Source: Methanoculleus sp. (GTDB taxonomy: Archaea; Halobacteriota; Methanomicrobia; Methanomicrobiales; Methanomicrobiaceae). Taken from it: a stretch of DNA of 33,560 nt. The DNA is taken from NCBI GenBank assembly GCA_011048835.1, contig DSDF01000041.1, forward strand, positions 1 to 33,560, given 5' to 3'. Shown piece by piece: positions 27,135-33,560 of this stretch; the stretch's first letter is position 1; each line of letters starts with the position of its first letter. The translations under genes and the position numbers were made by a program. The notes under the pieces were generated by a model that was given only the letters and a program-made list of their open reading frames with translations, did not search any database and was not told the origin of the DNA.

Positions 27135-28949
27135 GTGAGCGAAACGCGCCAGATCGGAGCGGTGATCCTGATCACCGCGGCAATTGCGGTGCTCGCCCTC
27201 GCCGCCCTCGCCGCCCTCCCGGCACTCCTCGAGGGCGACCTCGTCGTGGACAGCTACGAGGCGGTATGGCAGGAGGACGGCACGCTCATCGAGCGCTATA
27301 CCTACGAGGTGAAGGAATCAGGCAGGTACCGCATGCTCTATCGCGTCTGGGACGCGCCGCTCGCCTCGCAGGCCCTCGATGCACCGCACATCGAATTCGT
27401 CGAAATGACCGCCCCGGCAGGAGTGGTGGGCTACTACCGGGATCACCTCGGCATGGTTACCCTCGTCGATTCCGGCAGTACGGCATATCAGGCAACCATT
27501 GCAGGCCTCGCCTACCCCAACGAGGCGGGCATCTACAACCCGGCATACTTCGAGGCAGGGACGTACACCGTCGAGTACGTCTTTCGCATACGCCCGCCCA
27601 TCGAGTACGACGAGTCCTTCGCCCATATCAACCTGCAGCTGGCACGCGAGCACGTGCCCTACCGGAGCGTCGCCATCACCGTGCCTGCAGCCCCCATCGA
27701 GCAGCTGTACCCGCATCCACCCACACTCACCGCAACGCGTGAGGGTGAATCGTTCGTGATCAGGGGGAGCGCCCCCCGCGACGACCTTGTCGAGGTTGAG
27801 ATGCTGCTCTCCCGCGAGAGCCTTGATGCCCTCGCAGGATTTCCGACCGCAGTCGAGGATGTCCGGGGCAAGACCGAATCGGCCAACCTCTGGTATTCGC
27901 TGCCCTTCTCTGCAGCGATAGTGCTCAATTTTCTTGCAAGGGTTGCCGTTCTCGTCATGCCGCTGCTCCTCTACCTCGCGTACCGGCGATGGGGCCGGGA
28001 AAAAGCGTTCACCGTCCCCCGCTACCTGAGTTTTGTCCCCGACCCCGATCTCAGGCCATGGCAGGTCAACCTCCTCTTCAAGGGAGATGCCGTCGATTTC
28101 GACGAAAACGGGTTTTACGCCACCCTGCTCGACATGCACCGGCGCAACCATCTCGAGATCTCCGAAAAGGAAGGGGGGAAGGGGGTGATCATCCGCATCC
28201 TCGATGACCGGACCGGTGATCCCTACGAACAGCGCATCATCGCCTTTGTCAGGAACGCGGGCGAAGACGACGAGCTCGATACCGGCAGGCTGGAGACGCT
28301 TGCGCAGCGCGCCGATCACAGCACCAGCGCACAGCTCTCCATCATGCGCCTCCAGACAACGCTCAAGGCATTATCGGACACGGTCGACCGGTCGATTGTC
28401 CGCACCTATCTTGTGGAGGGGCGGCCGCGCCTCCTGCCGCTCGCGTTTCTGGGAGCGATACCCTGTGCGCTTTCCGTCCTCCTGCTCATCCGGGCGACGG
28501 GGACCGCCCCTCTGCTCATGCCCGCCGCAGTGCTCTTCTGTATGGTCATCCTGCAGGTCGGCGCGGCAGCACTCTTTCCCACGACGCTCTTTGGTTCGTG
28601 GAAAGGCGATCACTACAAAGAGAAACTGGAATGGAACGCCTTTGCAGCGTTTCTCTCGGACATGGCGCTCATCAGGAAGTACTCGCCAGCCGACCTTTCC
28701 ATGTGGGGGGAGTGGCTGGTCTACGGCACCGCCCTCGGCGTCGGCGACCGCGTGGAGGAGGCGATGAAGGAGCTGCAGATCAACATACGGGAGACCGGCA
28801 TGCCCCGCTACTCGTACCTGCACTTCGCCTTCGTGCCCGTGGTGGCATATGCCCCGCCGGCGAGCGGCGGTGGCGGGTTCGGCGGGCGAGGTGGCGGTGG
28901 ATTCGGCGGCGGCGGCGGATTCGGCGGCGGCGGCGCCGGCGGACGCTGA
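27135..28949 (+). CDS. DUF2207 membrane protein with glycine-rich C-terminal tail
   Basis: The 604-aa protein has a signal-anchor helix (8-32), an extracytoplasmic beta-rich DUF2207 domain (35-235), a membrane segment near 255-282, a soluble part with KAFTVPRYLSFVPDPDLRPW, and two further helices around 434-480. The last 28 residues are nearly all Gly with Phe, typical of this family's tails. The GTG start lies 12 nt after lemA. Function unknown; probable partner of LemA in the envelope. Confidence 0.9.
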   Translation: MSETRQIGAVILITAAIAVLALAALAALPALLEGDLVVDSYEAVWQEDGTLIERYTYEVKESGRYRMLYRVWDAPLASQALDAPHIEFVEMTAPAGVVGYYRDHLGMVTLVDSGSTAYQATIAGLAYPNEAGIYNPAYFEAGTYTVEYVFRIRPPIEYDESFAHINLQLAREHVPYRSVAITVPAAPIEQLYPHPPTLTATREGESFVIRGSAPRDDLVEVEMLLSRESLDALAGFPTAVEDVRGKTESANLWYSLPFSAAIVLNFLARVAVLVMPLLLYLAYRRWGREKAFTVPRYLSFVPDPDLRPWQVNLLFKGDAVDFDENGFYATLLDMHRRNHLEISEKEGGKGVIIRILDDRTGDPYEQRIIAFVRNAGEDDELDTGRLETLAQRADHSTSAQLSIMRLQTTLKALSDTVDRSIVRTYLVEGRPRLLPLAFLGAIPCALSVLLLIRATGTAPLLMPAAVLFCMVILQVGAAALFPTTLFGSWKGDHYKEKLEWNAFAAFLSDMALIRKYSPADLSMWGEWLVYGTALGVGDRVEEAMKELQINIRETGMPRYSYLHFAFVPVVAYAPPASGGGGFGGRGGGGFGGGGGFGGGGAGGR

Positions 28950-31350: not shown

Positions 31351-31400
31351 AGAATGTTGCAGATAAGGGCTATATCCCTAAATCAGGGGGGATTCATGTG

Positions 31401-32132
31401 ATGAAAAAATTGACCTTACTCCTTGTACTGCTCGTTGCGGGAGGGGTTTGTATCGCCGGATGCACCACCGAAGAAAATGGTGAAGTGCTGCCGACACAAA
31501 CACCCGAAGCAACAGAGACAGTACCAGAGGAAGTTACCACGCCTCCCACTGAGGAAGTGACGGAAGAGCCGACAGAAGAAGTGACGGAAGAGCCGACAGA
31601 AGAAGTGACAGAACCGACGGCAAACCTCGTGGAGACTGCTGCAGGTGCCGGACAGTTTAATACCCTGGTTGCGGCTATCGAGGCCGCGGGGCTGAGCGAA
31701 GAACTGAGCACCGGCGGGCCATACACGGTCTTTGCACCAACTGATGCTGCCTTTGCGGCGATTCCGGCCGAGACCCTGGATGCACTGCTCGCTTCACCGG
31801 ATGAGGAGCTCACTGAGATTCTGACCTACCATGTCGTGGAGGGCGAATACTACGCCGTGGATCTGGCGAACTCCGTGTCGCTTGACACCCTTCAGGGGAC
31901 CATGCTCACCATCAGCATCGACGGCGACACGGTGATGGTGGACGGTGCACAGGTTATCGATCAGGATATACAGGCGAGCAACGGCGTCATCCATGTCATT
32001 GACGAGGTGCTGGTGCCGATCGGTGTCGAACTGCCGGCGGCGACCGACGGTGAGATGGAGGAAGCAACTGAAGAGATGACAGAAGAGGTCACCGAGGAAA
32101 TGACAGAAGAAGAAACCGAAACCCCGGAGTGA
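31401..32132 (+). CDS. Fasciclin-domain (FAS1) lipoprotein
   Basis: The 243-aa secreted protein has a signal peptide ending in the lipobox I-A-G-C21, so it is probably lipid-anchored outside the membrane. A Thr/Glu/Pro-rich linker (about 28-73, repeats of EEVTEEPT) is followed by one FAS1 domain (about 75-207) with TVFAPTDAAF, LTYHVVEG and NGVIHVIDEVLVP. A second Glu/Thr-rich repeat tail (216-243) ends the protein. FAS1 domains act in adhesion or cell-surface contact. GTG 31398 directly precedes ATG 31401, which has GGGGGA upstream. An operator-like palindrome and a strong TATA box precede it. Confidence 0.92.
   Translation: MKKLTLLLVLLVAGGVCIAGCTTEENGEVLPTQTPEATETVPEEVTTPPTEEVTEEPTEEVTEEPTEEVTEPTANLVETAAGAGQFNTLVAAIEAAGLSEELSTGGPYTVFAPTDAAFAAIPAETLDALLASPDEELTEILTYHVVEGEYYAVDLANSVSLDTLQGTMLTISIDGDTVMVDGAQVIDQDIQASNGVIHVIDEVLVPIGVELPAATDGEMEEATEEMTEEVTEEMTEEETETPE
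31554..31620 (+). repeat. 24-bp tandem repeat encoding the Glu/Thr/Pro linker
   Basis: Two identical 24-bp units (31554-31577 and 31578-31601, beginning GAAGTGACGGAAGAGCC) are followed by a partial, diverged third. Each unit encodes eight residues of the form EVTEEPTE. Copy number may vary between strains. Confidence 0.85.
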
Positions 32133-32423: not shown

Positions 32424-33443
32424 ATGCCTGACGGGCCGCAGGAATCTGCCGGGAGCATTGCCGCATCCCTGTTCCAGAATGAACTGGAGACCATCACTGC
32501 GGCGATCGAATCGTACGGCAAGAAAACTCACGAAAATATCGCCATCATAGCGGATCCTTTTGCAGGTCAGCAATTAGTCATTGAAGAAATCAAGCGGCGG
32601 TACCCGGACACGATCTCGTATCTTCCCTTCTTTTCCGTGGTGACAGGCAAAGACTTCATCCCCAACCTCTACACCGCAAAGGACGTGGTCGTCATGGAGC
32701 GCTGCCATTTCCTTGCACTGCGTAAAATTGGCGGGTTCGTGATGCTCGACGAATTTCTCGATTTCATCTCGTCATCGGAAAAACTCTTCATAACGACCTG
32801 GAACAGCTACTCGTGGTCGTACCTGAATGCCGTGAAACGTATCGAGGGATTTTTCCCCGAGATTATCCGGCTGCCGAAAATTGACGACATGACACTCAAA
32901 CAGCTTATCCTGTCGCGGTACGAAAACAACGAGATTGAATGTATCGATGATCGCGAGGTCGAAAAGAATAGCGGGTTCGAGGTTATTAAACGCCAGGTCA
33001 CCCTTCCGTTTACCAGCGCGCCGATAACCATCCCGTGGATAACATTCAACGTCGGGGCGACAAAGGGGGAAGAGGTCAAGGCCGAGGACGCTGTGTTCAG
33101 GAGGATCAATACCCTTGCAGACGGCAATTACGGGGTTGCACAGAGAATCTGGGACCGGTATCTCGAATACCCCACGATGAAGATGAGCAACCTCCCGGAC
33201 AGACCCTGCGCCCTCGATCTCTCCATCAATGAGGAATTCCTCCTCAATATCATTCTCTCCATGGAATCCATCCAGCTCGTGGATCTCGTCGAGATCGCGA
33301 GCCCGGAGATCAATATCGACCAGAATCTCCACCGGCTGATCAAGCAGGACCTCGTCGAAGAGGAGAAGGGATATTATCGCATCAAGCCCGAGGCGCTCAA
33401 CTGTGTATGCAACTACCTCAAGCGAATACGGATGGTGTGGTAA
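32424..33443 (+). CDS. P-loop ATPase-like protein with degenerate Walker A and C-terminal winged helix
   Basis: I recognise the general architecture but no named family. The 339-aa protein resembles AAA/STAND ATPases. A strand-loop IAIIADPFAGQQLVIEEI sits where Walker A should be but lacks the G-K-S/T core, with AGQQ (residues 47-50) in its place. A Walker B-like DVVVMERCHFLAL follows at 87-99, then a sensor-like KLFITTWNSYSW. The C-terminal 75 residues look like a winged helix (NEEFLLNIILSMESIQLVDL, LIKQDLVEEEKGYYRI). ATP binding is doubtful. Its stop abuts the ATG of a membrane protein (TAAATG), which implies a shared operon. Confidence 0.78.
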   Translation: MPDGPQESAGSIAASLFQNELETITAAIESYGKKTHENIAIIADPFAGQQLVIEEIKRRYPDTISYLPFFSVVTGKDFIPNLYTAKDVVVMERCHFLALRKIGGFVMLDEFLDFISSSEKLFITTWNSYSWSYLNAVKRIEGFFPEIIRLPKIDDMTLKQLILSRYENNEIECIDDREVEKNSGFEVIKRQVTLPFTSAPITIPWITFNVGATKGEEVKAEDAVFRRINTLADGNYGVAQRIWDRYLEYPTMKMSNLPDRPCALDLSINEEFLLNIILSMESIQLVDLVEIASPEINIDQNLHRLIKQDLVEEEKGYYRIKPEALNCVCNYLKRIRMVW

Positions 33444-33560
33444 ATGGTGAACGAAATACAGGTCGATTGGACGGATTTGCCTATCAAGGATATCGATATC
33501 GGCACCTTCCTCTACATCGCCTATCTCCTCATCGCCGCCTACATCGCGGTGCGGGTGCTC
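33444..33560 (+). CDS. Membrane protein, N-terminal fragment (cut by window end)
   Basis: The first 39 residues are visible: a short acidic leader (VNEIQVDWTDLPIKDID) and the start of a membrane helix (FLYIAYLLIAAYIAVRVL). The ATG directly follows the stop of the P-loop-like gene. A mechanosensitive-channel-type protein would fit the leader and helix, but too little is present to name it. Confidence 0.7.
   Translation, partial: MVNEIQVDWTDLPIKDIDIGTFLYIAYLLIAAYIAVRVL

Follow-up and report, generated by a model that had tools for sequence, protein, structure and literature searches.

A P-loop protein, its nucleotide site degenerate in some lineages, is encoded together with an MscS-type channel in sampled Halobacteriota

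The window, meaning the whole 33,560-nucleotide stretch that was analysed, makes up contig C14 in full; the draft genome to which it belongs is 2.0 Mb in size and has the Methanomicrobiaceae MAG M17C-73-02 as its nearest named relative. Close to its right end an ORF encodes a P-loop-like protein (Table 1). The TAA stop codon of this gene (33441-33443) abuts the ATG of the next gene at 33444 to give TAAATG, exactly as the original prediction had described for an ATPase-like gene touching a membrane-protein gene. The contig ends inside the second gene, and the identity of its product had been left to sequence beyond position 33560. Contig C108 of the same genome opens with 123 bases identical to those at the right end of the window, an overlap of contig ends presumably left over by the assembler at a graph break. 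Extension through C108 completes the second gene, which encodes an MscS channel (PF00924) of ~286 amino acids.

Table 1. Features of the P-loop gene and of the start of the channel gene, in window coordinates.
Feature	Position	Strand	Basis
AAA+/STAND-like P-loop gene with a degenerate nucleotide site and a predicted C-terminal winged helix	32424..33443	+	ORF, 339 aa
Walker A position, residues 43-50 (ADPFAGQQ)	32550..32573	+	Sequence; survey of 67 homologues
Walker-B-like strand, residues 88-97 (VVVMERCHFL)	32685..32714	+	Sequence; homologue survey
Sensor-1-like TTWN..SW.YL motif, residues 124-134	32793..32825	+	W126, N127, W131 and L134 near-invariant
Predicted protruding beta hairpin, residues 184-209, lower confidence	32973..33050	+	AlphaFold2, Q-type and K-type homologues
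Predicted winged-helix domain, residues 268-334, negative net charge	33225..33425	+	AlphaFold2; computed charge
Conserved 3' end CGG ATG GTG TGG TAA (R-M-V-W-stop) bearing GGTG	33429..33443	+	Codon bias; Shine-Dalgarno-like counts
MscS-type channel gene, 5' 117 bases (39 codons)	33444..33560	+	Goes on in C108 (locus L044, to ~base 891)

Nucleotide identity between the window and the sister locus L021 is ~97% and drops to 67-85% inside the P-loop gene, at about codon 135. The low-identity tract covers window positions 32800-33560 and L044, includes all of the MscS gene and extends ~1 kb beyond it (joined coordinate ~35,400); it is either an allelic recombination tract or a product of mixed-strain assembly. 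Elsewhere in the window, a fasciclin-like lipoprotein (31398-32132) carries Thr/Glu-rich repeats (TEEVTEEPTEE) that flank its domain on both sides, and the repeats of the L021 copy differ slightly. The product of 27135-28949, a membrane protein whose tail is rich in glycine (GGGGFGGGG), looks by eye like a DUF2207-type protein, and inspection of L021 places a LemA-like gene ahead of its DUF2207-type-looking gene. Downstream of MscS in L021 (7787-9823) are genes whose products appear by eye to be glutaredoxin-like, ferredoxin-thioredoxin-reductase-like and stomatin/prohibitin-like; neighbour clustering of 57 loci did not find them recurring near the pair elsewhere.

Several comparisons identify the membrane partner. 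The MscS beta domain (PF00924) was detected in 20 of 20 aligned subfamily members at E ≤ 0.001, and the L021 protein scored 68.7 bits against a cut-off of 20.2. A profile of the channel matched the solved MscS structures 3udc and 3t9n over nearly its full length (E = 2e-19), and profile positions 20-272 matched residues 27-275 of E. coli MscS (E = 1.4e-13). The completed protein has three hydrophobic segments (~residues 16-47, 55-82 and 85-119), the number of transmembrane helices expected of an MscS protein; the third is Gly/Ala-rich and lines up with solved MscS. Matches to the NCBIfam MscS equivalog models were far below cut-off, and the channel is therefore considered a distinct MscS subfamily. 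Its family membership predicts opening by membrane tension. Conservation of the cytosolic domain, at 0.68 compared to 0.58-0.62 in neighbouring MscS paralogues, was considered as evidence for a protein interface and dropped because the excess is too slight.

Linkage between the two genes was measured in 60 near relatives and in 394 genomes, all of them Halobacteriota. Searches of the near relatives with the P-loop protein and with the MscS subfamily matched the identical 29 genomes; one of these (G020) is included through a weak MscS match alone, because its P-loop gene is located at a contig end. The P-loop profile was found in 69 of the 394 genomes and the MscS-subfamily profile in 65, all of which are within the 69. 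The four genomes with the P-loop match only comprise two with weak matches to other AAA ATPases, one in which a remnant of 64 residues is left and one that is fragmented and 66% complete. The two weak matches, from family f31 (G239 and G249), have an intact Walker A and were not counted. Locus L131, which has no MscS alongside, and L130, which is cut by a contig end, were also left uncounted. The order is represented by 232 genomes and 40 genera, of which 58 and 19, respectively, carry the P-loop gene; this presence is patchy, yet the pair is kept together.

This MscS follows directly, on the same strand, in every homologue locus that extends far enough downstream, with a single exception in G037, where a TnpB-like ORF is inserted between the two genes (L084, 331-1494). 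Adjacency is present at 67 junctions and in 20 further loci, and amounts to at least 86 Halobacteriota genomes (the 67 junctions plus 19 new genomes). The pairing is not due to chance, because it is repeated in all homologues with enough downstream sequence except the one carrying the IS insertion. Clustering of neighbours in the 57 loci placed the P-loop and MscS families in 53 and 51 loci, respectively, and the next most frequent family in 7. The pair recurs and no other neighbour does, which disfavours simple hitch-hiking in a conserved chromosomal block. The pair is a self-standing two-gene unit.

Two features of individual loci were recorded alongside the linkage survey. The P-loop gene is fragmentary or contains stops or frameshifts in L108, L133 and L135, next to an intact MscS. 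The channel in these loci may work without its partner, or the breaks may be assembly errors; an intact channel gene beside a broken partner argues against an absolute requirement for the partner. A second, conventional MscS paralogue is located no more than ~2 kb away in 10 of the 49 loci that measure at least 8 kb and in several shorter ones; loci with such a paralogue include L030, L033, L087, L094, L095, L101, L102, L107, L111-L114, L116 and L120. Its order and orientation vary between loci, and its proximity seems to exceed chance.

The junctions carry signals of translational coupling. An ATG in the MscS frame lies within -4 to +5 bases of the P-loop stop codon at 63 of the 67 junctions: directly after the stop in 32, with a one-base overlap in 12 and elsewhere in this interval in 19. 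Two of the four junctions that lack a nearby ATG start with GTG right after the stop. At the 3' end of the P-loop gene most clades have AGG-NTG-GTG-TGG-TAA-ATG. Valine within the last three codons is encoded by GTG in 44 of 52 cases compared to 26% in the gene bodies, and a Shine-Dalgarno-like string is present in the last 15 nucleotides of 59 of the 67 genes compared to 15% of in-frame controls taken from within genes. The GGTG at the gene end is likely the Shine-Dalgarno site of the channel gene, and these codon statistics make it most likely that the last codons of the P-loop gene contain the ribosome-binding site of the channel. The conserved C-terminal R-x-V-W was also considered as a protein docking motif; this idea was set aside because the synonymous bias to GTG and the Shine-Dalgarno-like strings show that its conservation reflects, at least in part, a constraint at the nucleotide level.

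The Walker A region of the window protein reads IAIIADPFAGQQLVIE, with Gln49 in the place of the lysine and Gln50 in the place of the following Thr/Ser, and Glu92 of the Walker-B-like strand occupies the Asp position. The absence of the lysine and the presence of a Walker-B-like strand had both been read correctly from the window. The position of the Walker A lysine is occupied by K in 27 of the 67 homologues, R in 22, Q in 10 and other residues in 8. The Thr/Ser that follows is present in 27/27 K-type, 17/22 R-type, 0/10 Q-type and 1/8 other proteins, and the Walker B Asp in 27/27, 15/22, 6/10 and 2/8 of the same classes. Other positions are near-invariant across all four classes (Cys94, Gly104, Phe105, Trp126, Asn127, Trp131, Gly234 and Trp243), and dN/dS in the non-K clades is 0.06-0.25, which indicates purifying selection. 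As judged from the homologue survey, the ATP site was lost stepwise while the rest of the protein was retained. The most extreme nucleotide-site loss is found in genus g30 (L149, L151 and L152), whose homologues have lost even the glycine motif of the P-loop (SPTSFSR, SPTSFPR and SPTSYSR) and still have MscS beside them.

Nucleotide binding was probably lost secondarily rather than being absent family-wide. The tree of the 67 sequences is unrooted and requires a minimum of three changes between K and non-K; the direction of loss, with lysine as the ancestral state, is taken from the general ancestry of P-loop NTPases. GK[ST] is retained in many homologues, including those of genus g14 of the same order and those of a clade that is probably Methanosarcina-type. 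The GQ form is common to ten homologues in at least four genera with [DE]PFAGQ conserved, and the degenerate gene in the window thus appears as a maintained, lineage-wide form. The best reading is that the family is nucleotide-dependent in its ancestry and nucleotide-blind in the window's lineage. The proposal of a nucleotide-blind protein consequently holds for this lineage, where the lysine was lost under purifying selection, but not for the family. The conservation check proposed with it had the same divided outcome: linkage to the neighbour is nearly universal, but the A-G-Q-Q loop is not family-wide.

The fold of the P-loop protein was predicted with AlphaFold2. The model of the window protein, built with the 67 homologues, has a pLDDT of 85.9 and a pTM of 0.80, and that of a K-type homologue has a pLDDT of 89.3 and a pTM of 0.81. 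Both models have the same order of elements: an AAA+ core, a beta hairpin, lid helices and a winged helix, the last as anticipated in the original prediction. The best PDB folds found by Foldseek for both models were Cdc6/ORC and RuvB with E = 1e-7 to 2.5e-8, matches that have TM-scores of just 0.3-0.5, large rmsd and 8-17% identity. The K-type model also matches 2qen, an archaeal Walker-type ATPase. The window protein had no match among the Pfam, NCBIfam, PADLOC or PHROG models, and a sequence search of solved structures with the P-loop protein returned nothing significant. The protein is placed within AAA+ by its predicted fold alone. It has the AAA+ core and C-terminal winged helix of the Cdc6/RuvB type, as judged from the top Foldseek matches with their low TM-scores, and the window member lacks a functional Walker A/B, with Lys and Thr absent and Glu in place of the Walker B Asp.

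The suggestion that the protein is STAND-like applies loosely, to the extent that an AAA+ core is followed by a winged helix in both predicted models. The STAND Walker A GxxxxGK[ST] is absent from the window protein, and its GK[ST] part is present in 27 of 67 homologues. C-terminal sensor repeats or a fused effector are absent, and the protein ends right after the winged helix; homologues are 320-365 residues long with one exception. No STAND model scored above its curated cut-off with the window protein or with ten K-type members scanned singly, the best of which reached nSTAND3 with E = 9e-6 and 25.9 bits against a cut-off of 27.2. The protein may work in a loosely STAND-like way, yet it does not qualify for the STAND class.

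We propose, with a probability of roughly 0.6, that a dedicated cytosolic AAA+/STAND-like protein regulates an archaeal MscS as part of a two-protein Halobacteriota channel module. The channel belongs to the MscS subfamily, has about three transmembrane helices and should assemble as a heptamer, and the product of the upstream gene is a soluble cytosolic protein with a predicted AAA+ core, beta-hairpin insert and winged helix. The abutting or overlapping stop and start codons, together with the embedded ribosome-binding site, would couple translation and yield matched amounts of the two proteins. The AAA+-like protein may bind the cytoplasmic cage of MscS and set its opening threshold or inactivation, and the pair could function as the sensor and gate that had been envisaged. 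Regulation in K-type lineages would be switched by NTP binding in response to cell energy state, crowding or a ligand. The nucleotide switch would be gone in the window's lineage, leaving a subunit that is constitutive or is driven by a ligand independently of nucleotide. This fuller picture, a heteromeric MscS tuned by an AAA+/STAND-like subunit that is nucleotide-controlled in K-type pairs and a pseudo-ATPase in Methanomicrobiaceae, is tentative and is given slightly less than even odds.

Two other roles for the AAA+-like protein were weighed against a regulatory subunit. It could be a chaperone-like assembly or quality-control factor that acts in MscS folding, insertion or oligomerisation and stays outside the working channel. 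The AAA+ fold, the synthesis of the partner ahead of the channel with coupled translation and the retention of the channel where the partner gene is broken are consistent with such a factor; ATP-driven chaperoning is ill-suited to a lineage-wide loss of the Lys, the Thr/Ser and the Walker B Asp, and we regard this role as unlikely. Alternatively, the protein could regulate transcription of the operon that encodes it, with the winged helix on DNA controlling mscS under osmotic stress. The predicted C-terminal winged helix and the nearest PDB folds, Cdc6/ORC and RuvB, which are DNA-binding AAA+ proteins, point in this direction. However, these are acidic proteins with a median pI of 5.6 (4.9 for the window protein), and neither the winged helix (median net charge -3) nor its recognition-helix region (median -1) is basic, which makes a DNA-binding regulator less likely. 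STAND proteins usually have winged helices that do not bind DNA, and the tight translational coupling favours a complex of fixed stoichiometry instead. Transcriptional control is similarly unlikely.

A role in defence, with a STAND-like sensor that opens the MscS pore upon infection and kills the cell, would fit the weak nSTAND3/AAA_16 similarity of some K-type members and the patchy distribution of a portable two-gene unit. Yet no PADLOC model matches the window proteins, a K-type homologue reaches E = 0.005 at best, and sensor repeats and effector fusions are absent. The genes are under purifying selection and have no recurrent defence neighbours in the 57 loci, the loss of the nucleotide site would disarm a STAND switch, and the ordinary MscS nearby in several loci points to turgor control. 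A defence module is accordingly very improbable. The original prediction had also named what would overturn it, namely homologues with an intact Walker A that reveal the window gene as a decayed copy, or a linkage to the membrane gene that is not conserved. Intact GK[ST] homologues do exist and a few family members are broken, as expected if the gene were what remains of a degenerating ATPase whose function disappeared together with the lysine, but linkage to MscS is conserved, the reading frames are open and the other motifs are invariant. The low dN/dS and the shared GQ motif lead us to reject this pseudogene reading, which we rate as the most improbable of all. Regulation of the channel by a dedicated partner is the reading we retain.

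In textbooks, MscS channels stand for gating that is self-sufficient and driven by tension only. To our knowledge known MscS channels need no AAA+-like subunit, and we know of no mechanosensitive channel for which an obligate AAA+ partner has been described. This large MscS subfamily is never found without the coupled AAA+-like gene in the sampled phylum, which suggests that some channels have dedicated cytosolic regulators. If the proposal is correct, K-type pairs would couple the energy state of the cell to turgor release. The K to R to Q series found in nature offers a ready-made experiment in the conversion of an ATPase switch into a nucleotide-independent subunit, and K-type pairs are present in apparently Methanosarcina-type genomes, where genetic tools exist.

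The P-loop/MscS pairing matches no named system that was found, in line with the original prediction. A full-text literature search covering few subscription papers, so that absence is not proof, returned no paper that joins MscS with STAND or NTPase partners, and a search for MscS with conflict systems or a pseudo-ATPase returned nothing relevant. The P-loop protein resembles STAND NTPases (nSTAND3, PF20720; ATPase_2, PF01637; structure 2qen) in having a P-loop core followed by a winged helix, and differs from them in lacking C-terminal repeats or a fused effector and in the loss of the nucleotide site in many members. It shares the AAA+ core plus winged helix with Cdc6/ORC and RuvB, whereas its winged helix is acidic and its genes have no DNA-processing context. 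Archaeal precedents exist for an MscS gene in a compact operon. The conserved haloarchaeal dacZ-mscS2 operon joins an archaeal MscS gene with a cytosolic signalling protein, and deletion of mscS2 has a growth phenotype at low salt, although the channel was not found to be a main target; the partner there is a c-di-AMP synthase and not an AAA+-like protein (PMC6741144). The ynaI-kamA-ablB operon of Ca. Methanoperedens, also in Halobacteriota, is a compact unit for osmoadaptation that includes an MscS-like gene; the partners there are acetyl-lysine synthesis enzymes, and a P-loop protein is unreported (PMC11337218). Within the MscS family (PF00924), which includes E. coli MscS, Caldanaerobacter/Thermoanaerobacter MscS, YnaI and MscK, the channel aligns over nearly its full length with E. 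coli MscS and best with the 3udc/3t9n MscS, and it differs from known members as a distinct subfamily that is always encoded with an AAA+-like partner.
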